The translations under genes and the position numbers were made by a program. Below are positions 13,264-42,435 of a stretch of 64,000 bases of DNA, piece after piece (the first letter of the stretch is position 1; every line of letters starts with the position of its first letter). Origin of the DNA: Nocardioides marmoribigeumensis (lineage in GTDB: Bacteria > Actinomycetota > Actinomycetes > Propionibacteriales > Nocardioidaceae); the NCBI RefSeq assembly GCF_031458325.1, contig NZ_JAVDYG010000001.1, positions 2,046,001-2,110,000 on the forward strand, written 5' to 3'. The notes under the pieces were generated by a model that did not search any database, was not told where the DNA came from, and was given only the letters and a program-made list of their open reading frames with translations.

Positions 13264-13292
13264 ATGACAACCTCGACCCACAGCCCTAAACT
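13264..13292 (+). promoter_or_regulatory. Candidate promoter of pyc
   Basis: ATGACA at 13264-13269 and TAAACT at 13287-13292 are separated by 17 bases and read towards the pyruvate carboxylase gene. The fit to a housekeeping actinobacterial promoter is moderate. The operator-like site at 13292-13302 begins at the last base of the -10 hexamer, a position suited to repression. Confidence 0.45.
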
Positions 13293-13302
13293 GGTCTGAC
13301 GT
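13292..13302 (+). promoter_or_regulatory. FadR-type operator candidate A (pyc)
   Basis: TGGTCTGACGT, preceded by AAAC. It matches the FadR-subfamily consensus TNGTNNNACNA except at the last base and shares AACTGGTCTGAC with the site at 42425. It overlaps the predicted -10 and start region of the pyc promoter. Confidence 0.6.
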
Positions 13303-13330
13303 CTGTTGTCTGCTGTTATGGAGGTGTCGC

Positions 13331-16300
13331 GTGTTCACCAAGGTGCTGGTCGCCAACCGTGGCGAGATCGCGATCCGTGCGTTCCGCGCGGCCTACGAGC
13401 TCGGCGCCGCCACCGTGGCCGTCTTCCCCCACGAGGACCGCGGGTCCGAGCACCGGCTCAAGGCCGACGAGGCCTACGAGATCGGCCAGCGCGGCCACCC
13501 GGTGCGCAGCTACCTCGACTCGGATGCGATCGTCGCGGCCGCGCTGGCCTGCGGGGCGGACGCGGTCTACCCCGGTTACGGCTTCCTCTCGGAGAACCCC
13601 GCGCTGGCCGAGGCGTGCGCCGCGGCCGGGATCACCTTCGTCGGTCCCTCGTCCGAGGTGCTCACCCTGACCGGCAACAAGGCGCGGGCGATCGCCGCCG
13701 CCCGCGCGGCCGGCGTGCCGACGTTGCGCAGCGTCGCGCCCTCGACCGACGTCGAGGAGCTGGTCGCGGCAGCCGCGGAGATCCCGGTCCCCCTGTTCGT
13801 CAAGGCGGTCGCCGGCGGCGGCGGGCGGGGCATGCGTCGGGTCGAGGACCGTGCCGAGCTGGCGGAGGCGATCCGGACTTGCATGCGCGAGGCCGAGGGC
13901 GCCTTCGGCGACCCGACCGTCTTCGTCGAGCAAGCGGTCGTCGACCCGCGCCACATCGAGGTGCAGATCCTGGCCGACGGCACCGGCTCGCCGGACGGCG
14001 TGATCCACCTCTACGAGCGGGACTGCTCGGTCCAACGGCGTCACCAGAAGGTCGTGGAGATAGCTCCTGCCCCGCGGCTGGACCCAGCGTTGCGGGACCG
14101 GATGTGCGCCGATGCGGTGCGGTTCGCCCGCGAGATCGGCTACACCTGCGCCGGCACGGTGGAGTTCCTGCTCGACCCCGCCGGCACCTACGTGTTCATC
14201 GAGATGAACCCGCGGATCCAGGTCGAGCACACCGTGACCGAGGAGGTCACCGACGTCGACCTGGTGCAGGCCCAGCTGCGCATCGCCTCCGGCGAGACCC
14301 TGGCCGACCTCGGCCTCTCGCAGGAGGCCGTCCAGCTCCGTGGCGCCGCCTTGCAGTGCCGGATCACCACTGAGGACCCGGCCAACGAGTTCCGACCCGA
14401 CACCGGCACCATCACGGCGTACCGTTCGCCCGGCGGCGCCGGCATCCGAGTGGACGCCGGGACGGCGTACGCCGGCGCCGAGGTGTCGCCGCACTTCGAC
14501 TCGATGCTGGCCAAGCTGACCTGCCGAGGCCGGACCTTCGACGACGCGGTGCGCCGCGCCCGGCGAGCAGTCGCGGAGTTCCGCATCCGCGGTGTGGCGA
14601 CCAACATCCCCTTCGTCGCTGCGCTGCTGGACGAGCCGGAGTTCCTGGCCGGCGGGGTCACGACGTCGTTCATCGAGCGGCATCCCGAGCTCCTGACCGC
14701 CCGTTCCCAGGGCGACCGCGCCACGAAGCTGCTGGACTACCTGGCCGACGTGACGGTCAACCAGCCGCACGGCCGGGTGCCGGTCTCGGTCGAGCCGGCC
14801 GCGAAGCTGCCCGCGCTCGACCTCCGCGCCCCGATCCCCCCAGGGTCGCGCCAGCGGCTGCGCGCGATCGGCCCGGAGGCGTTCGCCACCGAGCTGCGGG
14901 AGCGCACCGCGGTGGCGGTGACCGACACGACGTTCCGCGACGCGCACCAGTCGCTGCTCGCCACGAGGGTTCGCACCCACGACCTGCTCGGGGTGGCCGG
15001 GCACGTGGCTCGGACGACCCCCGAACTGTGGTCCCTGGAGTGCTGGGGCGGCGCGACCTACGACGTCGCGCTGCGGTTCCTGTCCGAGGACCCGTGGGAC
15101 CGGCTGGCTCGACTGCGGGCGGCGGTGCCCAACCTCTGCCTGCAGATGCTGCTGCGGGGGCGCAACACGGTCGGCTACACGCCCTACCCCACCGAGGTCA
15201 CCAGCGCCTTCGTCGAGGAGGCGGCCGCGACCGGGGTCGACGTGTTCCGGATCTTCGACGCCCTCAACGACGTCGAGCAGATGCGACCCGCGATCGAGGC
15301 CGTCCGCGCGACCGGGACCTCCGTGGCCGAGGTCGCACTGTGCTACACCGGCGACCTGTCCTCGCCCGCCGAGGACCTCTACACCTTGGACTACTACCTC
15401 CGGCTGGCCGAGCGGATCGTCGAGGCCGGCGCGCACGTGCTCGCGATCAAGGACATGGCGGGACTGCTCCGCGCGCCCGCGGCGCACACGCTCGTGACCG
15501 CGCTGCGCGCGCGGTTCGACCTCCCGGTGCACCTGCACACCCACGACACGCCGGGGGGGCAACTGGCCACCCTGACCGCGGCGATCGCCGCCGGTGTCGA
15601 CGCCGTCGACGCCGCGGCCGCCCCGATGGCGGGCACCACCTCCCAGCCGCCGCTGTCCTCGCTGGTCGCGGCCACCGACCACTCGCCGCGTGCGACGGGC
15701 CTGTCCCTGGCCGCGGTCAACGCGCTGGAGCCCTACTGGGAGGCGGTGCGGCGGCTCTACGCCCCGTTCGAGTCCGGCCTCCCCGCACCGACGGGCCGGG
15801 TCTACCGCCACGAGATCCCCGGTGGCCAGCTGTCCAACCTGCGCCAGCAGGCGATCGCGCTCGGCCTGGGCGAGAAGTTCGAGCAGGTGGAGGACATGTA
15901 CGCCGCCGCGAACGACATCCTCGGCAGGATCCCGAAGGTCACACCGTCCTCGAAGGTGATCGGCGACCTCGCCCTGGCCCTGGTCGCCGCCGGTGCTGAT
16001 CCGGCCGCGTTCGCGGCGGACCCGTCGTCGTACGACATCCCGGCGTCGGTGATCGGCTTCCTCCACGGTGAGCTCGGCGACCCGCCCGGAGGGTGGCCGG
16101 AACCGTTCCGCACCCGTGCGACCGCCGGGCGCTCCTGGTCGCCGTCGGTGGGCACGATGACTCCGGAGCAGGCGATCGCGCTCGAGAAGCACCCGCGCCG
16201 CACCCTGCACGAGCTGCTGTTCCCGGGCCCCACGCGGGACTACGACGAGGCCCGCGCCCGTTGGGGCGACCTGTCGGTCGTCCCCACACCGGAGTTCCTC

Positions 16301-16747
16301 TACGGGCTGCGGGCCGATCGCGAGCACGCGATCGACCTCGACGAGGGCAAGCGCGTGCTCCTGGAGCTGGAGGCGATCGGCGACCCGGACGAGCGCGGCT
16401 TCCGCACGGTCCTGGCCCGGGTCAACGGGCACCTGCGACCGGTCAGCGTCCGGGACCGCTCGGTCGCCGCCGACGTCGCGGCGGCCGAGAAGGCCGACCC
16501 GACCCGGACGGGCCACGTGCCCGCCCCCTTCCCGGGCGTCGTCTCGGTGAGCGTCGCCGAGGGGGAGGAGGTCGCCGCCGGCGAGGCCGTCGCGACGATC
16601 GAGGCGATGAAGATGGAGGCCACGATCACCGCGCCCGTCGCGGGCACGGTGGAACGCGTCGCCGTGGGCGGCCCGACCACGGTCGAGGCCGGTGACCTGG
16701 TGCTGGTGGTCCAGCCCTCTCGACGCGACCCCGCAGCACTGGCATGA
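13331..16747 (+). CDS. pyc: Pyruvate carboxylase
   Basis: 1138 residues, the normal length of a single-chain pyruvate carboxylase. It carboxylates pyruvate to oxaloacetate using ATP, bicarbonate and biotin. The biotin carboxylase domain (1-450) has VANRGEIAIRAFRAA, the glycine-rich ATP loop GGGGRGM and the EMNPRIQVEHTVTEE signature. The carboxyltransferase domain (about 520-1000) starts TDTTFRDAHQS and includes RIFDALND and the metal-binding HLHTHDTPGGQ. The C-terminal biotinyl domain has EAMKMEA, where the Lys carries biotin. The GTG start has GGAGGT just upstream. Its place as first enzyme gene after regulator 1, behind the shared operator, suggests it supports the island's pathway by refilling C4 acids. 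Confidence 0.95.
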   Translation: MFTKVLVANRGEIAIRAFRAAYELGAATVAVFPHEDRGSEHRLKADEAYEIGQRGHPVRSYLDSDAIVAAALACGADAVYPGYGFLSENPALAEACAAAGITFVGPSSEVLTLTGNKARAIAAARAAGVPTLRSVAPSTDVEELVAAAAEIPVPLFVKAVAGGGGRGMRRVEDRAELAEAIRTCMREAEGAFGDPTVFVEQAVVDPRHIEVQILADGTGSPDGVIHLYERDCSVQRRHQKVVEIAPAPRLDPALRDRMCADAVRFAREIGYTCAGTVEFLLDPAGTYVFIEMNPRIQVEHTVTEEVTDVDLVQAQLRIASGETLADLGLSQEAVQLRGAALQCRITTEDPANEFRPDTGTITAYRSPGGAGIRVDAGTAYAGAEVSPHFDSMLAKLTCRGRTFDDAVRRARRAVAEFRIRGVATNIPFVAALLDEPEFLAGGVTTSFIERHPELLTARSQGDRATKLLDYLADVTVNQPHGRVPVSVEPAAKLPALDLRAPIPPGSRQRLRAIGPEAFATELRERTAVAVTDTTFRDAHQSLLATRVRTHDLLGVAGHVARTTPELWSLECWGGATYDVALRFLSEDPWDRLARLRAAVPNLCLQMLLRGRNTVGYTPYPTEVTSAFVEEAAATGVDVFRIFDALNDVEQMRPAIEAVRATGTSVAEVALCYTGDLSSPAEDLYTLDYYLRLAERIVEAGAHVLAIKDMAGLLRAPAAHTLVTALRARFDLPVHLHTHDTPGGQLATLTAAIAAGVDAVDAAAAPMAGTTSQPPLSSLVAATDHSPRATGLSLAAVNALEPYWEAVRRLYAPFESGLPAPTGRVYRHEIPGGQLSNLRQQAIALGLGEKFEQVEDMYAAANDILGRIPKVTPSSKVIGDLALALVAAGADPAAFAADPSSYDIPASVIGFLHGELGDPPGGWPEPFRTRATAGRSWSPSVGTMTPEQAIALEKHPRRTLHELLFPGPTRDYDEARARWGDLSVVPTPEFLYGLRADREHAIDLDEGKRVLLELEAIGDPDERGFRTVLARVNGHLRPVSVRDRSVAADVAAAEKADPTRTGHVPAPFPGVVSVSVAEGEEVAAGEAVATIEAMKMEATITAPVAGTVERVAVGGPTTVEAGDLVLVVQPSRRDPAALA

Positions 16748-16758
16748 TGTGTGACATC
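16740..16758 (+). promoter_or_regulatory. FadR-type operator candidate F (SDR at 16815)
   Basis: Two overlapping elements lie across the pyc stop codon. One is TGGCATGATGT, in a 22-base context matching the reverse complement of the site at 24795 at 17 positions. The other is the perfect dyad GATGTGTGACATC (16746-16758). The location is about 57 bases ahead of the SDR gene. Confidence 0.5.
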
Positions 16759-16814
16759 TTGACTGTGACCGGTCCGGGTCGCCGAGGGTGACCAGGGGCC
16801 GCTGAGGAGGCGAC

Positions 16815-17537
16815 ATGCGCGGGCTGCAGGACAGAGGCATCGTGGTGACCGGGGCCGCCGGCGGCATCGGCGCGGCCGTGGTCGAGCGGCTCGTGACCGA
16901 AGGTGCCAAGGTCGTCGCGGTCGACCTCGTCGCACCGGAGCTGGACGGCGTGGTCGCCGCGCGCGCGGTCGACGTGACCGACGAGGACTCGGTCGCCGCC
17001 GCGTTCGCCGAGGTCGGTGAGCTCATGGGCGGGATCGACGGCCTCGTGGCCGCGGCCGGCATCCAGGCCTCGGGGCCGACCCACGAGCTCGAGCTGGACA
17101 CCTTCCGCAAGGTCCTCGACGTCTCGGTCATCGGCACGTTCCTGTGCGTCAAGCACGCGGTCCCCGCGATGCTGGAGCGAGGCGACGGGCGGATCGTGAC
17201 GTTCGGCTCGACGGCGGCGGTCTGCGCCGCGCCGGAGCTGACCTCCTACGCCTCCGCCAAGGGCGCCGTGCTCCAGCTGACCAGGTCGGTGGCGGTGGAG
17301 TACGCCGCCCGCGGCATCCGTGCGAACTGCCTGTGCCCGGGCGGGACGATGACACCGATGATGCGCGCGATCGACGAGCGCCGCACCGGGCCCGACCACT
17401 TCCGCGAGCGCCACCCCATCGGGCGCTACGCCGAGCCGGCCGAGATCGCCTCGGCTGCTGCGTTCCTGCTGTCGGACGACTCCTCGTTCGTCGTCGGCGC
17501 CGCCCTCATGGTCGATGGCGGCTACTCCTGCGCGTGA
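16815..17537 (+). CDS. Short-chain dehydrogenase/reductase
   Basis: 240 residues of the classical SDR type. The cofactor loop is TGAAGGIG (residues 12-19), DV at about 56 marks adenine binding, and AAAG replaces the usual NNAG. The catalytic residues are Ser in GSTAAV and the YxxxK of SYASAKG. It oxidises or reduces a secondary alcohol or ketone with NAD(P). The Asp after beta-2 (VVAVDL) favours NAD over NADP. It sits between pyc and the E1alpha gene, with candidate operators on both sides. The substrate is unknown; by context it could prepare or use an intermediate of the island's pathway. Confidence 0.87.
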   Translation: MRGLQDRGIVVTGAAGGIGAAVVERLVTEGAKVVAVDLVAPELDGVVAARAVDVTDEDSVAAAFAEVGELMGGIDGLVAAAGIQASGPTHELELDTFRKVLDVSVIGTFLCVKHAVPAMLERGDGRIVTFGSTAAVCAAPELTSYASAKGAVLQLTRSVAVEYAARGIRANCLCPGGTMTPMMRAIDERRTGPDHFRERHPIGRYAEPAEIASAAAFLLSDDSSFVVGAALMVDGGYSCA

Positions 17538-17563
17538 CAAGCGCTGGAGGCAGGACGTAAGAT
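17534..17563 (+). promoter_or_regulatory. Candidate promoter of the E1 operon
   Basis: GTGACA at 17534-17539 and TAAGAT at 17558-17563 are spaced by 18 bases and overlap the end of the SDR gene. The operator-like site at 17562-17572 begins within the -10 hexamer. Confidence 0.45.
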
Positions 17564-17572
17564 GTCATACAA
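17562..17572 (-). promoter_or_regulatory. FadR-type operator candidate E (E1 operon)
   Basis: ATGTCATACAA; its complement TTGTATGACAT fits TNGTNNNACNA except at the last base. The complement context CACTTGTATGACATC closely resembles AACTGGTCTGACATC at 42423. It lies about 20 bases ahead of the E1alpha start. Confidence 0.6.
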
Positions 17573-17592
17573 GTGACGAGAAGGAGAGCTCC

Positions 17593-18582
17593 ATGGAACG
17601 ACCTGACGGCGAGGAGGCCCTCGGCCTGCTGCGGCGCATGCTCTTGATCCGCCGGTTCGAGGAGCGGGCGGCCAAGCTGCGCGCGGGAGGGCTCATCCCC
17701 GGGTTCCTGCACCCCTACATCGGTCAGGAGGCCGTCGCGGTCGGCGTGTGCGCCGCGCTCGGTGACGACGCCGTGCTGACCTCCACCCACCGCGGGCACG
17801 GTCACCTGATCGCCCGTGGCGCGGACCCCGCCCGGATGTTCGCCGAGCTGTTCGCCCGGACCACCGGCTACAACGGCGGCAAGGGTGGCTCCCTCCACAT
17901 GATCGACGCGGCCCTGGGGTTCCTCGGGGCCAACGGCATCGTCGGCGGCGGCATCCCGCTGGCGGCCGGCGCCGCGCTCCAGCTGCGGCGCGCCGGCCGC
18001 ACCGCGGTCGGGGTGACGTTCTTCGGCGACGGCGCGAGCAACGAGGGCTCCTTCCACGAGACGCTCAACCTCGCAGCGCTCTGGAAGCTGCCGGTGCTGT
18101 TCGTCTGCGAGAACAACCTCTACGGCGAGTTCACCCGCCAGGACCGCCACCAGCTGATCACCGACGTGGCGGAGCGCGCGTCGTCGTACGGGATGGCCGG
18201 TGTGGTCGTCGACGGCAACGACGTGCTCGCCGTGCGCGACGCCGCGGCCGACGCCGTGGCGCGTGCCAACGCCGGCGAGGGCCCGACCCTGCTGGAGGCG
18301 AAGACCTACCGCCACCGCGGCCACTTCGAGGGCGACATGGGGCGCTACCGGCCCAAGGACGAGGTGGCCGCCTGGATGGCGCGTGACCCGATCGACCTGT
18401 TCGCCCAGCGGATCCAGGACGAGTGGGACCTCCCCGAGGAGGCCGTGGTCCAGGTGCGGGCCGAGGTCGAGCAGGAGCTCGACAAGGCGACCGCGTGGGC
18501 CAAGGAGCAGCCGCACCCGGTGCCGAGCGGTGCGCTGGAGGACGTGTACGTCGAGACCTACGAAGGAGCGGTGCTGCGATGA
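17593..18582 (+). CDS. 2-Oxoacid (acetoin/pyruvate-type) dehydrogenase E1 component, alpha subunit
   Basis: 329 residues of the thiamine-diphosphate E1alpha family. It decarboxylates a 2-oxoacid (or cleaves acetoin) and passes the acyl group to a lipoyl arm. The TPP motif runs from FGDGASNEG to NN in FVCENNLYG, with the expected spacing. RGHGHLIARG, YNGGKGGSLHM and TYRHRGHFEGD are also typical, the last resembling acetoin dehydrogenase AcoA. The ATG at 17593 follows GAAGGAGAG; an earlier in-frame start lies inside the SDR gene and is rejected. Its stop overlaps the E1beta start (ATGA). By context it is the alpha half of a pathway-specific E1. Confidence 0.92.
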   Translation: MERPDGEEALGLLRRMLLIRRFEERAAKLRAGGLIPGFLHPYIGQEAVAVGVCAALGDDAVLTSTHRGHGHLIARGADPARMFAELFARTTGYNGGKGGSLHMIDAALGFLGANGIVGGGIPLAAGAALQLRRAGRTAVGVTFFGDGASNEGSFHETLNLAALWKLPVLFVCENNLYGEFTRQDRHQLITDVAERASSYGMAGVVVDGNDVLAVRDAAADAVARANAGEGPTLLEAKTYRHRGHFEGDMGRYRPKDEVAAWMARDPIDLFAQRIQDEWDLPEEAVVQVRAEVEQELDKATAWAKEQPHPVPSGALEDVYVETYEGAVLR

Positions 18583-19562
18583 GCCGGTTCACCTACGCCG
18601 ACGCCGTTCGGCAGGCCATTGCCGAGGAGATGGAGCGGGACGAGTCGGTCTTCATGATCGGCGAGGACGTCGGCGAGCCCGGCGGCGTCTTCGGGGTCAC
18701 CAAGGGCCTCTGGGAGCAGTTCGGCCCGGACCGCCTGTGGGACACCCCGATCTCCGAGGAGGCGATCGTCGGCGCGGCCGTCGGTGCCGCACTGGTCGGC
18801 GGCCGCCCGATCGCCGAGATCATGTTCGGCGACTTCGTCACGCTGGCGATGGACATGATCGTCAACCAGGCAGCCAAGATCCACTACATGACCGGCGGTC
18901 GGCTCTCGGCTCCCATGGTGGTGCGGATGGTGACCGGCACCGCTGGCTCGACGGCCGCCCAGCACTCCCAGAGCCTCGAGTCGTGGTTCGTCCACGTGCC
19001 CGGGCTCAAAGTGGTCGCGCCCAGCACGCCCGAGGACGCCAAGGGCCTGCTCCGCAGCGCGATCCGCGACCCCGACCCGGTCATCTACTTCGAGCACAAG
19101 CAGCTCTACGGCGGTCGGGGCGGCCCTGCCGGCGACGTCGTCCAGGTCGAGCCCATCCCCTTCGGGGTCGGCCGGGTCCACCGGGAAGGTGAGCACGTCA
19201 CGATCGTGTCCTACCTCAAGACCCTGCACCACGCCCTCGCGGCCGCCGAGGCCCTCGCGGAGGAGGGCATCTCGTGCGAGGTCTGGGACCCCCGGACACT
19301 GGTCCCCTTCGACCACGCGGGCCTCCGCCGCTCGCTGACCAAGACCGGTCGCCTGCTGGTCGCGCACGAGGCCGTGACCCGCGGCGGCTTCGGCGCGGAG
19401 ATCGCGGCCTGGGCCGCTGAGGAGTGCCACGACGTGCTCACCGCACCGATCACCCGGGTCGGCGCCCGCAACGCGCCGGTGCCCTACGCCCCGGAGCTGG
19501 AGTCGCACGTCATCCCGGACGCCGACCGCATCGCCGACGCTGTCCGCAAGCTCGTCGGCTGA
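18579..19562 (+). CDS. 2-Oxoacid dehydrogenase E1 component, beta subunit
   Basis: 327 residues with a transketolase-like pyrimidine-binding domain (1-175) and a C-terminal transketolase_C domain (about 200-325). The N terminus (TYADAVRQAIAEEMERD) and FMIGEDVGEPGGVFGVTKGL are typical of E1beta, and the Glu of GEDV is the TPP-activating acid. IMFGDFVTLAMDMIVNQAAK is typical too. It overlaps the alpha subunit gene by four bases, so the two are coupled and form an alpha2beta2 heterotetramer by family rule. The free lipoyl-domain gene follows 29 bases later. Confidence 0.92.
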   Translation: MSRFTYADAVRQAIAEEMERDESVFMIGEDVGEPGGVFGVTKGLWEQFGPDRLWDTPISEEAIVGAAVGAALVGGRPIAEIMFGDFVTLAMDMIVNQAAKIHYMTGGRLSAPMVVRMVTGTAGSTAAQHSQSLESWFVHVPGLKVVAPSTPEDAKGLLRSAIRDPDPVIYFEHKQLYGGRGGPAGDVVQVEPIPFGVGRVHREGEHVTIVSYLKTLHHALAAAEALAEEGISCEVWDPRTLVPFDHAGLRRSLTKTGRLLVAHEAVTRGGFGAEIAAWAAEECHDVLTAPITRVGARNAPVPYAPELESHVIPDADRIADAVRKLVG

Positions 19563-19591
19563 GCGCCGGCACCGACCCGCAAGGAGCAAGC

Positions 19592-19861
19592 ATGGCAACG
19601 ACCTACCCGATGCCCCAGTGGGGGATCACGATGGAAGAGGGCACGGTCACCGAATGGATCGCCCAGCCCGGTGACAAGGTCGCCGAGGGCGACGTCCTCG
19701 CCGTGGTCTCGACCGACAAGATCGACGTCGACTTCGAGTCGCCCGTGGCCGGGATCGTCGCGGCCCACCTCGCCCAGGAGGGCCAGACGGTCCTCTGCGG
19801 CGGTGATCTGGTCGTCATCGCCAGCGACGAGGCGGACCTGGCCGACTATGAGGCCTCCTAG
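19592..19861 (+). CDS. Free-standing lipoyl domain protein
   Basis: 89 residues made of a single biotinyl/lipoyl domain. Beta strands flank VVSTDKIDVDFESPVAG, in which the Lys of DKI is the lipoylation site; E2 enzymes usually have DKA. It ends just after the domain, so there is no E1/E3-binding domain and no acyltransferase core. An ATG with AAGGAG seven bases upstream marks the start. It lies directly behind the E1 subunits. I infer that it is the mobile acyl carrier between E1, the separate E2 core (23529-24281) and E3 (40198-41595). It resembles E2 lipoyl domains, not GcvH. Confidence 0.88.
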   Translation: MATTYPMPQWGITMEEGTVTEWIAQPGDKVAEGDVLAVVSTDKIDVDFESPVAGIVAAHLAQEGQTVLCGGDLVVIASDEADLADYEAS

Positions 19862-19923
19862 CCGCCGGAGAGCCCACCCCGAGCGCGGGGGCCGAGTCGT
19901 GCCATTCTGGAGAGGAGCTGGTC

Positions 19924-20709: not shown

Positions 20710-20737
20710 CCGCGCACCGAGCTCCACACGGCGACCA

Positions 20738-20766: not shown

Positions 20767-20813
20767 CCCTGTGCTGGCCAGGCTGGTCGGGCCGGCGCGC
20801 CGACCCCCGCGCC

Positions 20814-22350: not shown

Positions 22351-22378
22351 TTGACCTCAGTAGGTCGAGTCCTATCAT
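22351..22378 (+). promoter_or_regulatory. Candidate promoter of the M24-E2 operon
   Basis: TTGACC at 22351-22356 and TATCAT at 22373-22378 are spaced by 16 bases, reading to the right. The operator-like site at 22384-22394 would cover the transcription start. Confidence 0.5.
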
Positions 22379-22383
22379 ATCTG

Positions 22384-22394
22384 TTGTATGACCA
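22384..22394 (+). promoter_or_regulatory. FadR-type operator candidate D (M24 gene and divergent amidohydrolase)
   Basis: TTGTATGACCA is a full match to TNGTNNNACNA. Its complement context GCAACTGGTCATACAAC shares GCAACTGG with the sites at 28896 and 42425. It lies in the 139-base gap between divergent genes and could control both. Confidence 0.65.
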
Positions 22395-22410
22395 GTTGCA
22401 AGGAGCGAGC

Positions 22411-24785: not shown

Positions 24786-24794
24786 TGGTATAAC
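24786..24794 (+). promoter_or_regulatory. Candidate extended -10 promoter of the ABC importer operon
   Basis: TGGTATAAC combines a TG extension with the -10 hexamer TATAAC (24789-24794). TTGACA occurs at 24761 but 22 bases away, which is too far for a standard pair. The operator-like site follows immediately. Confidence 0.35.
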
Positions 24795-24805
24795 ACATCA
24801 GACCA
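24795..24805 (-). promoter_or_regulatory. FadR-type operator candidate C (ABC importer operon)
   Basis: ACATCAGACCA; the complement is TGGTCTGATGT in the context CACTGGTCTGATGTG. It adjoins a TATAAC box and lies 14 bases ahead of the ABC ATPase start. An outer CTGGT/ACCAG inverted pair (24785-24806) may mark a second half-site. Confidence 0.6.
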
Positions 24806-24818
24806 GTGAGGAGAGCTG

Positions 24819-26479: not shown

Positions 26480-26540
26480 TCCAGGCGCTCGCTGACCGTC
26501 CCTTCATCCCGTCCCGCTACCTGTCAGGAAAGAAGCTGTC

Positions 26541-28910: not shown

Positions 28911-28946
28911 TATGTTGTGAGTGTCGCTGAGAGAGAAGGCTGTCCG

Positions 28947-30428: not shown

Positions 30429-30441
30429 GAAGGGCCACCCC

Positions 30442-31616: not shown

Positions 31617-31633
31617 AAGCCGAGACACGACCC

Positions 31634-32788: not shown

Positions 32789-32792
32789 GCGC

Positions 32793-33869: not shown

Positions 33870-33886
33870 CCCGAAAGGAGATCTCG

Positions 33887-34786: not shown

Positions 34787-36131
34787 CCTGCTGTTCCGAG
34801 GTGGCCGCGTGGTCACCCACACCGGAGAGTTCCGCGGCGGGCTCGCGGTCAGTGACGGACGGATCGTCGCGATCGGCGCCGACGACGCGCTGCCGTCGGC
34901 GCGACGCGAGATCGACCTGGACGGCCGGGTGCTCATGCCGGGCGTCGTCGACCCGCACTGCCACCTCGGCGTCAACTACGACTACGACGAGGACATGCGC
35001 ACCGAGACCGCCGGCGCGGCCAGCGGTGGGGTGACCACGGTCCTGCTGTTCATCCGCAACCCGGAGGGGTCCTACATCCCCTTCTACAAGGACCGCCGGG
35101 CGCGCGGGGAGCAGCAGGCCTCGATCGACTTCGGCTTCCACTTCGGCATCCAGCGCGAGGACCACATCCCGGAGATCGCGCAGGTCGCCGCGGAGACCGG
35201 CGTCCGGTCGTTCAAGTGCCACATGGGCTACGAGCGCGGCAACCCGATCGGCATCGTCTCCTCCACCGACGCGTGGGTCTACGGCGCCATGCGCGAGGCG
35301 GTGAAGCTGCCCGGCGGGGTGGTCTCCGTGCACTGCGAGAACACCGACATGGTGGAGCTGCTCAAGAAGGAGATGATGGCCACCGGGCGGCAGGACCTTG
35401 CGGCCTACACCGAGTCGCGGCCGACCTTCGTCGAGGAGGAGGCCATCGGGCGCATGATCAAGCTCGCCGAGCTGACCGGCTGCCCCCTGTACATCGTGCA
35501 CACCAGCGTCGGGCGCGGCCCCGAGCTGGCGGCCGAGGCCCGCGCGCGCGGCATCGACGTGACCATGGAGACCTGTCCGCACTACCTGCTGCGGACGGCC
35601 TACGACGAGGACCTCGGCCCGACGGCCAAGATCTCCCCGCCGTTGCGTGACCTGGAGCAGCAGGCCGGGCTGTGGCGAGGGATGCTCAACGGCTCGATCG
35701 ACACGCTGGGCACCGACCACGTGCCGTTCATCAAGACCGGTGGCGACCTGTGGAGCGAGAAGCCCGGGGTGGTCTCGTTCAACTGGGAGCTCCCGTTGAT
35801 GCTGCACCACGCGGTGCACGAGCGTGGCATGTCGCTCTCGCGGCTGGTGCAGCTGAACTCCTACAACCCGGCCAAGCGCTTCGGTCTGGCTCCCCGCAAG
35901 GGCACGCTGGCCGTCGGCGCGGACGCCGACCTCGTCGTGGTCGACCTCGACGAGGAGCGCACCGTGACCCCGACCGGCAAGGGCACCTGTCTCTACGACG
36001 GCTGGACGCTGCGCGGCTGGCCGGTGATGACGGTCTCGCGCGGCAGGGTCGTGTTCGAGAACGGCGAGGTCGACCCCGATGCCGTCGGGCACGGCCAGTG
36101 CGTCAACCGGCCCGAGAGCGAGCGATCCTGA
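34776..36131 (+). CDS. Dihydropyrimidinase/hydantoinase-like cyclic amidohydrolase
   Basis: 451 residues with the binuclear site of the D-hydantoinase group: HCH in VVDPHCHLGV, the carboxylatable Lys in SFKCHMGYE, His in VSVHCEN and YIVHTSVG, and Asp in GTDHVPF. These enzymes open five- or six-membered cyclic imides such as hydantoin, dihydrouracil or allantoin. Its ATG lies 11 bases inside the end of the DpaA-like gene, after GAGGAAGG, so translation is coupled. The TIM-barrel gene follows with a one-base overlap. It is one of three amidohydrolases in the island, which supports ring opening of an N-heterocycle. Confidence 0.9.
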   Translation: MQADLLFRGGRVVTHTGEFRGGLAVSDGRIVAIGADDALPSARREIDLDGRVLMPGVVDPHCHLGVNYDYDEDMRTETAGAASGGVTTVLLFIRNPEGSYIPFYKDRRARGEQQASIDFGFHFGIQREDHIPEIAQVAAETGVRSFKCHMGYERGNPIGIVSSTDAWVYGAMREAVKLPGGVVSVHCENTDMVELLKKEMMATGRQDLAAYTESRPTFVEEEAIGRMIKLAELTGCPLYIVHTSVGRGPELAAEARARGIDVTMETCPHYLLRTAYDEDLGPTAKISPPLRDLEQQAGLWRGMLNGSIDTLGTDHVPFIKTGGDLWSEKPGVVSFNWELPLMLHHAVHERGMSLSRLVQLNSYNPAKRFGLAPRKGTLAVGADADLVVVDLDEERTVTPTGKGTCLYDGWTLRGWPVMTVSRGRVVFENGEVDPDAVGHGQCVNRPESERS

Positions 36132-36925
36132 TGCTGCGCTCGATCTCGATCCAGCTGATGTGGACCGACCGCCCGCACGCCGAGCGCGTGGAGGCCGCCG
36201 CGGCCGCGGGGTTCGACCTGGTGGACCTGTGGGACCGCCGCGACAGCGACCTCGACGGCGTCGCCGAGACGGCCCGTCGCCACGGGGTCGGCGTCAACGG
36301 GTTCTTCGGCAACCGTGACCACTCCCTGTGCGACCCCGACGACGTCGACGCCGCGATCGCCGAGATCGCGGAGAACCTCGACGCCGCGGTCAGGGCGGGC
36401 GCCCGCCAGCTCCACCTGTTCAGCAACGCGATCCGCCCCGGCGGCGTCGTGGCCCCGCTCCCCGAGCTGGACCGTGCCGAGCTGATCAGCACGGGTGTCC
36501 GCGCCCTGCGCACAGTCGCCCCTCGGGCGGCCGAGGCGGGGGTGCAGCTCGTGCTGGAGCACCTCAACACCGTCTTCCTGCCGGGCTACCTGTGGGACGA
36601 GGTCGCGGTGACCACCGAGGTCGCGCAGGCCGTCGACCACCCCTCGGTCGGCGTGGTGTTCGACGTCTTCCACCAGCAGCTGGTGCGCGGCAGGCTCACC
36701 GACAACCTCGTGGCGTGCCTGCCCTGGCTGGTGCGGGTCGACATCGCGCAGGTCCCCGACCGAGCCGAGCCCGGGCTGGGTGAGGTCGACCTGGGGTTCC
36801 TGCGCGACGTCCTCGCGCGCCACGGCTGGGACGGCACGATGACCTTCGAGATCGTGCCCAGCGACGGAGATCCCGCCACCGCCGTGAAGGACATCGACCG
36901 GCTGTTCCCCAAGGTCTCGGCATGA
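36131..36925 (+). CDS. Hydroxypyruvate isomerase-like TIM-barrel protein
   Basis: 264 residues of the AP-endonuclease-2-type TIM-barrel family. It begins SISIQLMWTDRPHAERVEAAAAAGFD. Metal ligands are probably the Glu in LVLEHLN, the Asp in VVFDVFHQQ and the Glu in MTFEIVPS. The FDxxHQQ stretch resembles the FDxYHMQ of hydroxypyruvate isomerases. It probably isomerises a small hydroxy-oxoacid; hydroxypyruvate/tartronate semialdehyde would fit a nearby SDR and serine hydroxymethyltransferase, but this is inference. The start overlaps the hydantoinase stop by one base. Confidence 0.82.
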   Translation: MLRSISIQLMWTDRPHAERVEAAAAAGFDLVDLWDRRDSDLDGVAETARRHGVGVNGFFGNRDHSLCDPDDVDAAIAEIAENLDAAVRAGARQLHLFSNAIRPGGVVAPLPELDRAELISTGVRALRTVAPRAAEAGVQLVLEHLNTVFLPGYLWDEVAVTTEVAQAVDHPSVGVVFDVFHQQLVRGRLTDNLVACLPWLVRVDIAQVPDRAEPGLGEVDLGFLRDVLARHGWDGTMTFEIVPSDGDPATAVKDIDRLFPKVSA

Positions 36926-37659
36926 GCGCGCACCAGCTCACCGACAAGGTCGTGGTGATCACCGGCGTCGGCTCGATGCGTGGGCAGGGCGCTGCCGCCG
37001 CGCGGCTCTTCGCCGCGGAGGGCGCTCGCGTGGTCGCCACCGACCTGCCCTCGTCCGAGGGCGAGGCGACCGCCACGCAGCTCGGTGTGGAGTTCCGTCC
37101 CCTGGACGTCACCCGGGCCGAGGAGTGGAAGGCCCTCGTCGAGGACGTCGTGGGCCGGCACGGACGCATCGACGTGCTGGTCAACAACGCCGGCCTGTGG
37201 TGCGCGACGCCACTGCTCGAGATGGTCCCGGAGGAGTACGACCGCGTCGTCGCGGTCAACCAGACCGGTGTCTACCTCGGGATCGCGGCCGTCGCTCCGG
37301 TGATGCGCGACCAGGGGTCCGGATCGATCGTCAACACCTGCTCGGTCTCCGGCATGCGGGGCGCCGGCCAGCCGTTCGCCTACGCGGCCTCCAAGTGGGC
37401 GGTGCGCGGGATGACCCGGGTCGCGGCCCACGAGCTGGCGCCTCACGGGGTCCGGGTCAACGCGGTGAGCCCGGGTGTGGTGGACACCCCCATGATCCAC
37501 GGGGGTGCGGAGGTGCTCGACCGGCTCGCCGCCCTGGTGCCGATGGGCCGCGTCGCCCAGCCGGACGAGGTCGCTCACGTGGTCCTGTTCCTCGCCGGCG
37601 CGTCCAGCAGCTACATCTCCGGCACGGAGATCAGCGTCGACGCCGCGTTGACCGCCTAG
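36922..37659 (+). CDS. Short-chain dehydrogenase/reductase
   Basis: 245 residues. The cofactor loop is [10 protein letters not shown], a longer variant of TGxxxGxG. DV (PLDVTRA), NNAG, the Ser of CSVSGM and YAASK are in place. Asp after beta-2 (VATDLP) suggests NAD use. It is an intact classical SDR, coupled by ATGA to the TIM-barrel gene. The predicted reaction is oxidation or reduction of a hydroxyl or keto group of a pathway intermediate. It is not closely similar to the SDRs at 16815 and 41606. Confidence 0.87.
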
Positions 37660-37667
37660 GAGCTGCC

Positions 37668-37973
37668 GTGCCGTTCCTGGTCACCTGCCGCGACGTCGCG
37701 GACTCCGCCGGCCTGCGCGCGGAGCACCTGCCGGCCCACCGTCGCTATGTCGACGAGCGGGCCGAGCAGATCCTGCTCTCCGGACCGCTCACCGACGACG
37801 ACGGCGTGCGGCGGGTCGGCCAGCTCTTCGTCCTCGACGTCCCCGACCCGCCGGCGGCCTCCGCCTTCATCCGCCAGGACCCGTTCACCCGGGCCGGCGT
37901 CTTCTCCGACATCACGATCGATCGTCTGGAGCTGCGCTTCGACGGGGGACGTCGCCTCCCTCGCACCGACTGA
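37668..37973 (+). CDS. YciI-like small protein
   Basis: 101 residues starting at a GTG with AGGAG seven bases upstream. It begins [29 protein letters not shown] and contains [23 protein letters not shown], the ferredoxin-like fold pattern of YciI (YCII domain). The His in the R..HRRYV stretch and the Asp pair match the family's putative active site. The function is unknown in general; homologues occur as accessory enzymes in aromatic and heterocycle degradation. An earlier frame start would run antisense-like through the SDR gene and is rejected. Confidence 0.78.
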
Positions 37974-37988
37974 CAGGAGTGTTCACCC

Positions 37989-39260
37989 ATGACCACGCTC
38001 GACGAGCCGCTCGCCACCTTCGACCCCGACGTCCACGCGGCGATCACCGCGGAGCTCGCCCGCCAGCAGGGCACCCTGGAGCTGATCGCCTCGGAGAACT
38101 TCGCGCCGGTCTCGGTGATGCAGGCGCAGGGCTCGGTCCTGACCAACAAGTACGCCGAGGGCTACCCGGGCCGCCGCTACTACGGCGGCTGCGAGCACGT
38201 CGACGTCGTCGAGCGGCTCGCCATCGAGCGGGTCACCGCGCTGTTCGGCGCCGAGGCCGCCAACGTGCAGCCCCACTCGGGCGCGCAGGCCAATGCCGCC
38301 GCGATGTCGGCGCTGCTCGACCCGGGGGACACGATCCTGGGCCTGGATCTGGCGCACGGCGGTCACCTGACCCACGGCATGCGGCTCAACTTCTCCGGCA
38401 AGCTCTACAACGTCGTGGTCTACCACGTCGACCCGGACGACTTCCGGGTGGACATGGCCGAGGTCGAGCGCCTGGCGGTGGAGCATCGACCCAAGCTGAT
38501 CGTCGCGGGTTGGTCGGCCTACCCCCGCCACCTGGACTTCGCGGAGTTCCGGCGCATCGCCGACCTCGTCGGCGCCCACCTCATGGTCGACATGGCGCAC
38601 TTCGCCGGCCTGGTCGCAGCCGGACTCCACCCGAACCCGGTGCCGCACGCCCACGTCGTCACCACGACCACCCACAAGACCCTCGGTGGGCCGCGTGGAG
38701 GTGTCATCATGAGCACGGCGGACCTGGCGAAGAAGCTCAACAGCGCCGTCTTTCCCGGCCAGCAGGGCGGTCCGCTCGAGCACGTCGTCGCCGCCAAGGC
38801 GGTCGGCTTCAAGCTGGCCGGGTCCCCGGAGTTCCGCGAGCGGCAGGAGCGCACGCTGGAGGGCGCCCGGATCCTCGCCGCGGCTCTCGGTTCCGATCGG
38901 GTCCGCGACGCCGGGGTCAGCGTGCTGACCGGCGGCACGGACGTGCACCTGGTCCTGGTGGACCTGCGCGACTCGGAGCTGGACGGCAAGCAGGCCGAGG
39001 ACCTCCTGCACTCGATGGGCCTGACGGTCAACCGCAACGCGGTCCCCTTCGACCCGCGTCCCCCGATGGTCACCTCCGGCCTGCGCATCGGCACCCCGGC
39101 GCTGGCCACCCGCGGCTTCGCCGCCGAGGAGTTCACCGAGGTGGGCGAGATCATCGCCACCGCGCTGAGCAGCACCCCGTCGGAGGAGCTCAGCGCCCAG
39201 CTGCGGAGCCGGGTCGCCTCGCTGGCCGCCCGCGTCCCGCTCTACCCGGGCCTGTCGTGA
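37989..39260 (+). CDS. glyA: Serine hydroxymethyltransferase-family enzyme
   Basis: 423 residues. The start [29 protein letters not shown] and [17 protein letters not shown]-type region (here [17 protein letters not shown]) are classic, and the Lys of THKT binds PLP. It exchanges serine and glycine with tetrahydrofolate, or cleaves beta-hydroxy amino acids. Some normally invariant positions differ: HKTL is followed by GGPRGG (usually RGPRGG), and AGWSAYPR replaces GASAYPR. This suggests a side-branch paralogue with altered substrate preference. AGGAG precedes the ATG. The following lipA start overlaps its stop (GTGA). Confidence 0.88.
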
Positions 39261-40201
39261 CAGCCGTCGCCCCGGGGGGGCGCAGGCTGCTGCGGCTGGA
39301 GGTCCGCAACGCTGCTGTCCCGATCGAGAGGAAGCCGGAGTGGATCAGGACCCGCGCCCGGATGGGCCCGGAGTACACCGCGCTGCAGCAGCTGGTGAAG
39401 TCCGAGGGACTGCACACCGTGTGCCAGGAAGCCGGCTGCCCCAACATCTACGAGTGCTGGGAGGACCGCGAGGCCACCTTCCTCATCGGCGGCGACCAGT
39501 GCACCCGACGCTGCGACTTCTGCCAGATCGACACCGGCAAGCCCCAGCCCCTCGACCGTGACGAGCCCCGCCGCGTCGCGGAGTCGGTGCAGACGATGCA
39601 GCTCAAGTACGCCACCATCACCGGCGTCGCCCGCGACGACCTGCCCGACGGCGGCGCCTGGCTCTACGCCGAGACCGTCCGCGCGATCCACGACCTCAAC
39701 CCCGAGACCGGGGTGGAGAACCTGATCCCCGACTTCAACGGCCGCCCCGAGCTCCTGACCGAGGTCTTCGAGTCCCGCCCCGAGGTCCTGGCCCACAACG
39801 TCGAGACCGTCCCGCGGATCTTCAAGCGCATCCGCCCCGCGTTCGGCTACGACCGCTCCCTGGACGTGCTGACCCAGGCCCGCGCGTTCGGCCTGGTCAC
39901 CAAGTCCAACCTCATCCTCGGCATGGGCGAGACCCGAGAGGAGGTCTCCCAGGCCCTGGCCGACCTCCACGACGCCGGGTGCGAGCTGGTCACGATCACC
40001 CAGTACCTGCGCCCCTCCCCCCGCCACCACCCCGTAGAGCGGTGGGTCCGGCCCGAGGAGTTCGTCGAGCTCGCCACCGAGGCCGAGGAGATCGGCTTCG
40101 CCGGCGTCCTGTCCGGCCCGCTCGTGCGCTCGTCGTACCGCGCGGGACGGCTCTACCAGCAGGCCATGGACCGCCGCACCACGTCAGGAGCCCTCGCATG
40201 A
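39257..40201 (+). CDS. lipA: Lipoyl synthase
   Basis: 314 residues. The radical-SAM cluster motif is CTRRCDFCQ (CxxxCxxC). The auxiliary cluster motif is [12 protein letters not shown], and the C-terminal RSSYRAG supplies the serine ligand of the auxiliary cluster. It inserts two sulfurs into octanoyl groups bound to lipoyl domains. Genomes usually keep lipA beside lipB; here it sits in a catabolic operon between glyA and the E3 gene. I infer that it serves the free lipoyl domain at 19592. The GTG start overlaps the glyA stop, and the E3 start overlaps its own stop. Confidence 0.94.
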
Positions 40202-41595
40202 CCCACGTCGACGTCCTGGTGCTCGGCGCCGGCCCCGGAGGCTACGTCGCCGCGATCCGTGCCGCCCAGCTGGGCCGGTCCGTGGCCGTGGTCGAGAAGC
40301 AGTACTGGGGAGGCGTCTGCCTCAACGTCGGCTGCATCCCCTCCAAGGCGCTGCTCAAGAGCGCCGAGCTGGCGCACACCCTGACCCGGGAGAAGGCGGC
40401 CTTCGGCATCGAGGGCGACGCGACGATGGCCTGGGCGCCCACGCACGCACGGTCGCGTCAGGTCAGCGACGCCATCGTCAAGGGCGTCCACTTCCTGATG
40501 AAGAAGAACAAGATCGCCGAGGTCCACGGCTGGGGCACCCTGACCGGCCCCCAGGCGGTCTCGGTCGCGCTCGAGGACGGGACGACCGCGGACTACACGT
40601 GCGACGACCTGATCATCGCCACCGGGGCGACCGTGCGCACGGTCCCGGGCGTCGAGCTCAACGGCACGAGTATCGTGAGCTACGAGGAGATGATCCTCGC
40701 CGACACGCTGCCGTCATCCGTCGTCATCGGCGGGTCGGGGGCGATCGGCGTGGAGCTGGCCTACGTGCTGGCGAACTTCGGCGTCGAGGTGATCCTCGTG
40801 GAGTACCTCGACCGGATGGTGCCCACCGAGGACGCGGAGGTCTCCAAGGAGCTCTCGCGGCACTACCGCCGGCTCGGCGTCAAGGTCCTGACCTCGACCG
40901 CGGTCCTGGGTGTCGAGGACACCGGCTCAGGTGTGAGCGTGCGCGTCGCCCCGGCCGGGGGCGGGGAGGAGCAGGTTCTCCACGCCGACCGGTTCCTGGC
41001 GGCCTTCGGCTTCGCCCCGCGCGTCGAGGGTTACGGGCTCGAGGCGACCGGCGTCGCCCTGACCGAGACCGGAGCGATCGAGGTCGACGAGCACTGCCGC
41101 ACGAGCGTCGAGGGGGTCTATGCCATCGGCGACGTCACCGCCAGGTTGATGCTCGCCCACGTCGCCGAGGCGATGGGCATCGTCGCGGCCGAGCACCTGT
41201 GCGGGCAGGACCCCCGTCCGGTGGACTACGACTTCGTCCCGCGCGCCACGTACTGCCAGCCGCAGATCGGGTCGTTCGGCTACACCGCGCAGCAGGCCAG
41301 GGACCGTGGGCACGAGGTCACGACCGCGTCCTTCCCGTTCGCGGCCAACGGCAAGGCCAAGGGCCTGGGTGAGGCCGTGGGGTTCGTCAAGGTCGTCGCC
41401 GATGCCGACCACCGGATCCTCGGGGCCCACATGATCGGCCCGGACGTCACCGAGCTCCTGCCGGCACTGACCCTCGCCCAGACCCTCGGCCTGACCGCCG
41501 AGGACGTGAGCCGCAACGTGTTCGCCCACCCGACGCTGTCCGAGGCCGTCAAGGAGGCGATCCACGGGATCACCGGGCACATGATCAACCTCTAG
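40198..41595 (+). CDS. lpdA: Dihydrolipoyl dehydrogenase (E3)
   Basis: 465 residues. The FAD loop is [19 protein letters not shown], the redox disulfide [16 protein letters not shown], the NAD loop [13 protein letters not shown] and the second FAD segment [20 protein letters not shown]. The dimer-interface catalytic dyad is HPTLSE. It reoxidises dihydrolipoyl groups with NAD. It has no fused lipoyl domain. Coupled by ATGA to lipA, it completes the split complex (E1 at 17593-19562, lipoyl at 19592, E2 core at 23529). It is the last gene of the rightward run and converges with the SDR at 41606 across a 10-base gap. Confidence 0.94.
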
Positions 41596-41605
41596 GTCAG
41601 TCGGG

Positions 41606-42394
41606 TCAGAACGCACCCATGGTCGCGCCGGCGTTCACCGCGAGGGTCTGGCCGGTGATCATCCGGGCCTGCGCACCGCTGAGGAACGCGACCGTGGCGG
41701 CGACGTCCTCGCCCTCGATGGCCGTGCGCAGGCATTGGCCGGCGACGGCTTGCTCGAAGACGGACCGGTCGAGCTCGGCCAGGGCGCTCGCGGTGTGCAC
41801 CAGGCCGGGGGCCACGGCGTTGACCGCGACCCCGTAGGGCCCGAGCTCACGCGCCATGGTCCGCGTCATGCCGACGATCGCAGCCTTGGAGGCGACGTAG
41901 TGCAGGTAGTTCGCCATCCCGAACGCGGCGGTGTTGGAGGTGATGTTGACGATCCGTCCTCGTCGCGCGCGGCACATCAGCGGCGCCACCGCGCGGCTGC
42001 ACAGGAACACCGAGCGGGCGTTGGTCTCCATCACCCGGTCCCAGGTCGCGACGTCGATCTCCCAGAACGGCACGCGCGGCACCCCGCGGAAGATCCCGGC
42101 GTTGTTGACCAGGACGTCGACTCGCCCGCGCCACGCCAGGATGCGTGCGATCGCCTCGGCGACCTGGTGCTCGTCGCACAGGTCGGCGGTGAAGCCACGC
42201 AGGCGCCCGCCGCCGCTGCCACCGCCGCGGTCGTAAAGCGTCGCGCTCGGCTCGACCACGTCGAGCAGGGCCACGTCCGCGCCCAGGTCGCGCAGGCGGT
42301 GCCCGATGTCGGTGCCGAGGGCGCCGGCGCCGCCGGTCACGATCGCGACCTGGCCGCGCAGGTCCGCACTCGCCGGCAGGGGGACCTCGGCCAC
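41606..42394 (-). CDS. Short-chain dehydrogenase/reductase
   Basis: About 262 residues. TGGAGALGTDIG is the cofactor loop, NNAG is present, NITSNTA carries the Ser and YVASK the Tyr and Lys. The Asp after beta-2 (VALLDV) points to NAD. I choose the GTG at 42394 because GAGGAGG lies eight bases upstream. A longer in-frame start at 42469 would run through the operator B region. It is divergent from the P450 gene; operator B sits about 31 bases ahead of this start. By context it belongs to the island's regulon. Confidence 0.87.
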   Translation of the reverse strand: MAEVPLPASADLRGQVAIVTGGAGALGTDIGHRLRDLGADVALLDVVEPSATLYDRGGGSGGGRLRGFTADLCDEHQVAEAIARILAWRGRVDVLVNNAGIFRGVPRVPFWEIDVATWDRVMETNARSVFLCSRAVAPLMCRARRGRIVNITSNTAAFGMANYLHYVASKAAIVGMTRTMARELGPYGVAVNAVAPGLVHTASALAELDRSVFEQAVAGQCLRTAIEGEDVAATVAFLSGAQARMITGQTLAVNAGATMGAF

Positions 42395-42424
42395 GGCGAA
42401 ACCTCCTCGGGTCCGGGGAGCAAC

Positions 42425-42435
42425 TGGTCTGACAT
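42425..42435 (+). promoter_or_regulatory. FadR-type operator candidate B (SDR and P450)
   Basis: TGGTCTGACAT in the context GCAACTGGTCTGACATC, the clearest copy of the shared motif. It lies between divergent starts at 42394 (-) and 42463 (+). A -10-like TATCCT lies at 42440-42445 on the + strand. Confidence 0.65.

Follow-up and report, generated by a model that had tools for sequence, protein, structure and literature searches.

We found that seven copies of a common, asymmetric 24-bp motif (consensus approximately ACTGGTCTGACATSTGATAT) lie before the genes of a 29-kb catabolic island in the window, the whole 64-kb stretch of DNA that was analysed. These sites very probably constitute one locally controlled regulon, because the motif was not found elsewhere in the genome at the same quality and recurs, in related bacteria, before matching genes beside a matching regulator. 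The FCD-type proteins GntR1 and/or GntR2 are, judging from sequence, quite likely to bind the seven operators and to repress the regulon until a pathway metabolite releases them. This is a known kind of control, of which the island is a well-conserved example. The regulators and gene units are as follows.

12505-13245, + strand: GntR1, with GntR (PF00392) and FCD (PF07729) domains
13331-16747, + strand: pyruvate-carboxylase-type enzyme (pyc), unit A
16815-17537, + strand: short-chain dehydrogenase (SDR), unit B
17593-19861, + strand: 2-oxoacid dehydrogenase E1-alpha and E1-beta and a small biotinyl/lipoyl-domain protein, unit C (with GntR2)
19924-20709, + strand: GntR2, paralogue of GntR1, with GntR (PF00392) and FCD (PF07729) domains
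20814-22271, - strand: TRZ/ATZ-type amidohydrolase, divergent from unit D
22411-24757, + strand: M24 peptidase family, E2 acyltransferase domain and glyoxalase family, unit D
24819-27518, + strand: ABC importer ATPase, permease and NMT1/THI5-like binding protein, unit E
28947-41595, + strand: thirteen close-set genes, from aldehyde dehydrogenase to dihydrolipoamide-dehydrogenase-like, unit F
41606-42394, - strand: short-chain dehydrogenase, unit G

A literature search by combinations of enzyme names returned no paper on the cluster, a search in general terms for two regulators with a common operator likewise returned none, and the solved structures and protein families of the pathway enzymes named no substrate.

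All seven sites of the first-pass annotation were present at their positions (A 13292+, B 16740+, C 17562-, D 22384-, E 24795-, F 28896+ and G 42425+), and the downstream genes assigned there also agreed (pyc, SDR, E1-alpha, M24 peptidase, ABC ATPase, aldehyde dehydrogenase and SDR/P450). The site centres lie 22-68 bp upstream of the nearest start codon in the composition-based gene calls of this analysis, and both orientations relative to the gene occur. From these seven window sites we built a 24-column matrix, which scored them as listed below.

13288-13311, + strand: operator A, before pyc (start 13331); matrix 34.9, leave-one-out 26.3
16736-16759, + strand: operator B, spanning the pyc stop codon, its centre 68 bp 5' of the SDR gene at 16815; matrix 31.4, leave-one-out 24.8
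17553-17576, - strand: operator C, before E1-alpha (start 17593) and heading the gene run E1-alpha/E1-beta/lipoyl/GntR2; matrix 32.7, leave-one-out 24.3
22375-22398, - strand: operator D, in the divergent gap between the amidohydrolase (start 22271, -) and the M24 peptidase (start 22411, +); matrix 32.5, leave-one-out 19.9
24786-24809, - strand: operator E, before the ABC importer ATPase (start 24819); matrix 34.4, leave-one-out 27.8
28892-28915, + strand: operator F, before aldehyde dehydrogenase (start 28947) and overlapping the stop codon of the amidohydrolase gene upstream; matrix 37.4, leave-one-out 33.5
42421-42444, + strand: operator G, in the gap between the SDR (start 42394, -) and an interrupted P450 (42484, +); matrix 35.0, leave-one-out 29.9

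The leave-one-out scores thus ranged from 19.9 to 33.5, and nothing in 440 kb of the own genome equalled the score of any left-out site (that of operator A, for example, was unsurpassed there). The best score of the full seven-site matrix in the same 440 kb was 12.8, and its next best non-overlapping match in the 64-kb window reached 16.4. A 19-bp union pattern, CTKGYMWKAYRWSWKDYRY, was made from the seven sites only, so that its matches there hold by construction but its absence elsewhere does not. In a search of the whole 4.44-Mb genome it matched seven times, exactly at the seven sites, and the reversed-pattern control gave 0. The same-genus genome G023, which lacks the cluster, also gave 0 matches; neither the regulator nor the DpaA-like marker had a match there. 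A shorter pattern, ACTGGYMTGAYRW, drawn after seeing the related genome G040, had all five of its exact matches in the own genome inside the island, three of four in G040 inside the cluster, and 0 in G023. At full match, the extended motif therefore occurs in its own genome only within the island.

The motif recurs beyond this genome. The matrix, built from window sites only, found intergenic sites within the cluster region of four further genomes from the phylum, and eight sites (three in G040, three in G955, one in G655 and one in G569) scored above all controls, namely the largest of 60 shuffles and the largest of 100 column-permuted matrices. When only the 16 core columns were used, the margins shrank: the largest shuffle then outscored two of the three G955 sites, and the largest permuted matrix outscored the G569 site. 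Weaker sites were found at G040 22750, G655 17700, G569 18477 and in G737 (L147, 1409), and all 11 sites in G040, G955, G655 and G569 lie between called genes, 5' of one. A fixed-3'-spacing pattern found few of the relatives' sites. The relatives carrying the motif span three genera, and SDR genes similar to that of unit G (50-53%) lie inside the cluster of G655, G955, G569 and G737.

The regulator travels with the sites. All five related genomes that carry the cluster encode exactly one GntR/FCD homologue each at E<=1e-25, and the stretch VSRVSVREA is identical in all seven regulator proteins (the two window paralogues and those of the five relatives). A site stands upstream of the regulator gene in G040, G955, G569 and G737, not in G655; in G737 the cluster contig yielded no site, and the regulator gene is on a different contig, preceded by a weak copy of the G569 site. 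In the related plasmid clusters of Aminobacter and Shinella (L088, L089), where many of the enzymes occur together with a GntR gene, the matrix found no convincing site, so the pairing of operator and pathway is not universal. The single strong 16-column match in L088 was rejected as it falls inside a malate synthase gene, and L095, with a distant homologue only, gave no convincing site. The proposal that the island forms one regulon is strongly supported by the confinement of the motif and its recurrence with the same regulator family, and with this comparative support we infer that the regulators bind the sites.

Both regulators resemble the FadR subfamily, with a GntR winged HTH (PF00392) at the N-terminus and an FCD C-terminal domain (PF07729), each above cut-off in both proteins. 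GntR1 and GntR2 are 55-56% identical over the match, with 77% in the DNA-binding domain and 46% in the FCD sensor domain. Since third-codon identity is equal in both domains (0.55 and 0.54), the DNA-binding domain was kept by selection, and recent gene conversion between the two is rejected. A GntR1 search across the family found matches in the own genome and in G040 only (2 of 197), a GntR2 search across the class in the own genome only (1 of 394), and a GntR2 scan of the genome contigs gave 35 loci at 25-52% identity. In the window no site lies directly upstream of either regulator gene; GntR2 sits downstream in unit C.

Because the DNA-reading domain was kept as the sensor domains diverged, the paralogues probably share operators, and their divergence suggests two sensors acting on one operator set. 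More tentatively, two metabolites of one catabolic pathway might jointly gate the 29-kb island via both sensors on the same seven operators, and the operator, being one-sided with a fixed TGATAT box, could have room for two dimers, perhaps one of either paralogue. It is about equally conceivable that the operators are real but used by one paralogue only, GntR1 having another target. GntR2 would be the more likely sole user, since it lies inside unit C and its FCD domain is closer than that of GntR1 to those of all five relatives (0.53 versus 0.48 to G040, for example), each of which manages with one regulator. However, the recognition stretch is the same in GntR1 and GntR2, and their DNA-binding domains are more alike (77%) than either is to that of G040 (60%).

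On the reading that GntR1 and/or GntR2 are repressors, promoter overlap offers a mechanism. The first-pass annotation had placed a -10-like hexamer at four sites; rule-based -35/-10 pairs bear this out at A, C and D, and E was seen by eye only (TATAAC directly before the 11-mer, unscored by the rule because its final T is absent). Between 13.1 and 29.1 kb the rule gave four matches against 0.3 expected, all at A (ATGACA-17-TAAACT, ending 13292), C (GTGACA-18-TAAGAT, ending 17563) and D (both strands, with the -10 hexamers overlapping there), and it found no promoter-like pair at B, F or G. Across about 140 kb of cluster DNA, the -10 of 7 of 12 promoter-like pairs lay within 20 bp of an operator, a count that takes one site two times and in which the copies in G569 and G737 represent a single homologous site; no such pair was found near operators in the cluster DNA of G040, G955 and G655. 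At A, C, D and E a -10-like hexamer is overlapped by the site or stands directly before it, so a bound repressor would cover the -10/start region there and block initiation. Its release by a metabolite of the island pathway would then switch on nearly all island transcription units together.

The contact of the site with the -10 region at several units, and the resemblance of its A/T-rich box to promoter DNA, would also fit activator-binding sites or promoter elements instead of repressor operators. We consider this improbable, given that both orientations relative to the gene occur, that the conserved part (ACTGGTNTGA) holds no sigma-type hexamer, and that a place over or just 3' of the -10 is typical of a repressor, as reported for NanR (PMC8012715).

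The FadR-type label for the operators proved correct in kind and loose in detail. The consensus TNGTNNNACNA, which all seven sites had been said to fit, is exact only at D, the others having one to three mismatches (A 1, C 1, G 1, E 2, F 2 and B, the poorest fit, 3). The shared flank AACTGG, also claimed for all, stands at A, D, F and G and is absent from the other three; the shorter ACTGG is present in six of seven, C having ACTTG. The main symmetry is a GTM-N-KAC centre with 3-nt spacing, exact in four window sites and with 1, 1 and 2 mismatches in the rest. The TKGT/ACMA boxes are not kept on both sides: the left one is retained and the right one is degenerate. Over 16 sites (leaving out G655 35480 and G955 31791, with two possible registers each, and the copy in G737, which is nearly identical to G569 18477), the most symmetric centre was 9.0 (GT-N3-AC), although its lead was small (0.456 complementary pairs versus 0.425 for centre 16.0, with 0.25 expected). 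The three inner pairs were complementary in 10, 13 and 13 of the 16 sites and the outer pairs in 1 and 5, the right half being poor. In whole-range profiles of 11 sites, the best dyad (centre 16.0) was reached by 28 of 500 column shuffles and the best direct repeat (offset 12) by 38 of 500, so neither is established; taken singly, offsets 7 and 12 were reached by 0 and 3 of 500. The first-pass annotation had overlooked a conserved 3' TGATAT-like box (columns 16-21), 7-12 nt from centre 9 and conserved at least as well as the palindrome's own right arm, with which the site becomes asymmetric and about 20-24 bp long. The label thus holds for the regulators by their GntR and FCD domains and for the operator by its GT-N3-AC centre, not for the literal consensus. 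FadR-subfamily dimers formed from GntR1 and/or GntR2 are predicted to bind this 20-24 bp site, in which the GT-N3-AC centre is flanked by one canonical arm (ACTGGT, left) and one degenerate arm (right), with the TGATAT box added on one side.

Comparison with known systems, as described in the cited reports, places the island among them. FadR-subfamily operators have a GTM-N-KAC centre with additional half-sites 7-12 nt from it (PMC4494728), as here, except that the extra box of the island rivals or exceeds the right arm in conservation. In Corynebacterium glutamicum, GntR1 and GntR2 are likewise FCD-domain GntR paralogues, with common operators at several promoters that fit TNGTNNNACNA with 1-2 mismatches and with gluconate interfering in binding; those proteins are 78% identical and functionally redundant (PMC2230225). 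The island paralogues, whose operator sharing is presumed, differ in their lower identity and diverged sensor domain, and their operators are confined to one island and serve another pathway. The box of LldR of Escherichia coli, AAnTGGTCnGACCAnTT (PMC10272880), is matched at sites A and G by the left arm AACTGGTCTGAC, but on the right AYRW and the TGATAT box stand in place of the arm ACCA. NanR, the best NCBIfam match of GntR1, binds GGTATA repeats in an asymmetric operator downstream of the polymerase site (PMC8012715); the island operator shares this asymmetry and position, but its direct repetition is at most a hint. GntR1 was rejected as an ortholog of NanR, LldR or PdhR, its scores (124.5/260, 107/311 and 102/330 bits) being below the curated NCBIfam cut-offs, in the case of LldR far below.

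It is very unlikely that the seven sites are bound by a different regulator of this genome that has a similar operator. The GntR protein at G000:C1:1591871-1592143, the example at hand, has TGGTCTGACCA upstream of it, with a perfect LldR-type palindrome about 40 bp from the gene's match, but its recognition stretch is VSRPAVREA, not VSRVSVREA, the right arm of the island motif differs, and in the relatives it is the island-type regulator that accompanies the sites. The first-pass annotation had held that a random frequency of the motif across the genome would refute its proposal; this was not found for the extended motif genome-wide, and it does describe the bare 11-base consensus in the window (4 matches versus 4.5 expected), so that the short form has no power and the extended motif does. 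That the sites are chance repeats, spotted by eye in a GC-rich genome, would be allowed by that count and by the pattern ACTGGYMTGAYRW, which at up to one mismatch is no commoner than its reversed control (40 versus 71 in G000), but this reading is refuted by the whole-genome and cross-genome counts.

The regulon would bring some two dozen genes for enzymes and transporters of a catabolic cluster under common control, and parts of this cluster are common to relatives and alphaproteobacterial plasmids. It also offers a handle on the substrate, as the regulator ligand should be a pathway metabolite, and it may serve as a clean natural case of paralogous regulators with one kept DNA-reading domain and diverged sensor domains.

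When the seven operators of the catabolic gene cluster (the island) are turned to one orientation and read with their flanks, they share a common sequence of about ACTGGTCTGACATSTGATAT. This comprises the 11-mer of the first-pass annotation, with AC upstream of it and a TGATAT-like box beginning 7 bases past the centre. That annotation had described the sites as FadR-type operator copies defining one regulon and fitting the consensus TNGTNNNACNA. Taken literally, this consensus carries no weight by itself: it matches the window 4 times where 4.5 matches would be expected, and D is the only one of the seven sites among them. The units behind the sites were taken from the gene layout, with borders inferred from spacing.

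Operators (window positions) and their units
A, 13292: pyc
B, 16740: SDR
C, 17562: E1/lipoyl/GntR2
D, 22384: M24/E2/glyoxalase, plus divergent amidohydrolase
E, 24795: ABC importer
F, 28896: 13-gene run, 28947 to 41595
G, 42425: SDR at 41606

For a leave-one-out test, the seven sites were made into a 24-column matrix. The left-out sites scored 19.9-33.5, and in 440 kb of the own genome nothing equalled any of these scores (full-matrix best 12.8); the best score in 400 kb of background from the related genome G040 was 14.2. A 19-position union pattern built from all seven had seven matches in the 4.44-Mb genome, all inside the island. Since the pattern was fitted to these sites, their own matches arise by construction; the absence of matches from the other 4.41 Mb was not built in. 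The genome-wide search proposed in the first-pass annotation thus places the extended motif, at full match, in the island only (7/7). Among relatives with a like cluster, the union pattern matched twice in G040 (both within the cluster), once in G955 (before the regulator) and once in G569 (about 6.7 kb beyond the permease gene, on the contig carrying the cluster), with no match in G655 or G737; nor did it match G023, a same-genus genome lacking the cluster. The reversed pattern, used as a control, gave 2 matches over the seven genomes combined. A shorter pattern with up to one mismatch gave 40 matches versus 71 for its reversed control; the signal is swamped in such a search, so weaker outlying sites may exist.

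A rule-based scan of 13.1-29.1 kb found 4 promoter-like pairs where 0.3 would be expected, and each of them overlaps operator A, C or D. In 28.5-44.5 kb the scan gave no such pair. Over the cluster regions of six genomes, 7/12 such pairs placed the -10 no more than 20 bp from an operator (window 4/4, G569 2/4, regulator piece of G737 1/1, G040 0/1, G655 0/2), none being detected in G955. No operator precedes the regulator gene GntR1 (12505-13245, + strand) or lies in the 132-bp leader of the amidohydrolase at 27651.

Site positions in the relatives came partly from a matrix that included G040 sites besides those of the window. To gauge their strength, we scored them with the window-only matrix and compared them with the top scores from 60 shuffles and from 100 column-permuted matrices. 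With 24 columns, three sites in G040, three in G955, one in G655 and one in G569 exceeded both controls, and none did in the cluster contig of G737, the plasmid clusters L088 and L089, or L095, a locus with a distant homologue only. Margins were smaller with the 16 core columns: the largest shuffle was exceeded by 3/3 G040, 2/2 G655 and 1/3 G955 sites and by the G569 site, which fell under the largest permuted matrix; one L088 match rose above the controls but lies in coding sequence. The weaker sites are G040 22750, G655 17700 (24 columns), G569 18477 and the G737 copy. By our own gene calls, all 11 sites of G040, G955, G655 and G569 are intergenic and 5' of a gene, including the regulator, ABC ATPase, aldehyde dehydrogenase/SDR, M24 peptidase and tautomerase. 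The other genes with a site before them encode a 385-aa protein after the permease (without a Pfam match in G955), in G040 an Nramp-type transporter and in G569 an ECF S component. In this last case the ECF-type S component (PF07155) stands with an ABC ATPase behind the site (L139 6220-6999), and one site in G955 has a RibD_C-domain gene on one side and the regulator on the other (L137 5787-6763); both contexts are possibly hints to the substrate class.

Across 16 aligned sites, GT-N3-AC is the most symmetric centre (0.456 versus 0.425 for the next), with inner pairs complementary in 10, 13 and 13 sites. The right outer arm is lost (outer pairs 1/16 and 5/16), and a whole-range profile search of 11 sites established no dyad or direct repeat. 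In PMC4494728, FadR-subfamily operators are described as TKGT/ACMA boxes with 3-nt spacing (GTM-N0-1-KAC), accompanied by additional, weaker boxes at a distance of 7-12 nt from the centre, and the TGATAT box of the island operator lies at this distance. The left half of the island operator matches the left half of the LldR box (PMC10272880). By analogy with NanR (PMC8012715), two-dimer or one-sided binding would be possible. Elsewhere in the genome, a perfect TGGTCTGACCA palindrome (G000:C1:1592182-1592192) lies just upstream of a match to another GntR gene, with recognition stretch VSRPAVREA, and is likely a separate, predicted LldR-type operator.

GntR1 and GntR2 (19924-20709, + strand) both carry GntR and FCD domains; the homologue ranked next by E-value in this genome shares 31% identity. 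At E<=1e-25 a single homologue was found in each of the five relatives, and all seven proteins contain the stretch VSRVSVREA unchanged. The paralogues share 77% identity in the DNA-binding domain versus 46% in the FCD domain (against the G040 regulator, 60%/48% for GntR1 and 60%/53% for GntR2). At third codon positions the two domains are equally similar between the paralogues (identity 0.55 and 0.54), which argues for selection on a common DNA-reading surface and disfavours recent gene conversion. In a tree of the seven proteins, GntR1, GntR2 and the G040 regulator group together with full support but in no fixed branching order, which allows duplication before or after the split from G040.

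The related cluster of G040, from the same genus, matches at 51-54% (GntR), 89% (tautomerase), 78% (MR/MLE-type enzyme) and 72% (SHMT); beyond this family, related clusters occur in two others, with one genus each (G569 and G737 in the first, G655 and G955 in the second). Judged by its DpaA-like protein, the cluster is sporadic: 2/197 genomes of the family, own genome included, and 5/396 in a sample from across the phylum, a figure that includes the own genome and a 34% homologue in G716. Plasmids of Aminobacter aminovorans (L088) and Shinella sp. HZN7 (L089) carry a similar enzyme set (opine-dehydrogenase-like, DpaA-like, hydantoinase-type, tautomerase, isochorismatase-type, deaminase) beside a GntR gene, flanked in L088 by two transposase modules; a literature search by enzyme names found no paper on this set.

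A GC content of 72.8%, together with the gene content, suggests a high-GC actinobacterial host. Several other features were seen in the window. An 84-nt inverted repeat, 83% complementary (45928-46011 and 47347-47430), encloses a sigma-70 region 4 gene (46073-46594) and an ORF (46578-47345) with no family above cut-off. A TetR gene (45297-45902) adjoins it and the palindrome CACTAGGTACCTAGTG occurs in each flank, so these palindromes may be TetR operators. The P450 gene at 42484-43713 is in two pieces, with an in-frame stop near 43285-43287, a weak N-terminal and a clear C-terminal family match. The radical SAM protein at 39257-40201, with a short N-terminal lipoyl-synthase match, is encoded in the same run as 2-oxoacid dehydrogenase parts.

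The best reading of the operators is repression: an FCD-type GntR protein bound over the start region would repress transcription, and a pathway metabolite would relieve it. The island encodes a RutB-like amidase, hydantoinase/allantoinase-type and TRZ/ATZ-type hydrolases, opine-dehydrogenase-type and DpaA-like proteins, a 4-OT tautomerase, an MLE-type enzyme and 2-oxoacid dehydrogenase parts, which suggests breakdown of a nitrogen-rich, perhaps heterocyclic compound. Two FCD-type GntR paralogues with common operators are already known from C. glutamicum (PMC2230225), so the arrangement is not new in kind. What is unusual here is an operator confined to the island and conserved across genera, together with regulators whose sensor domains have diverged.
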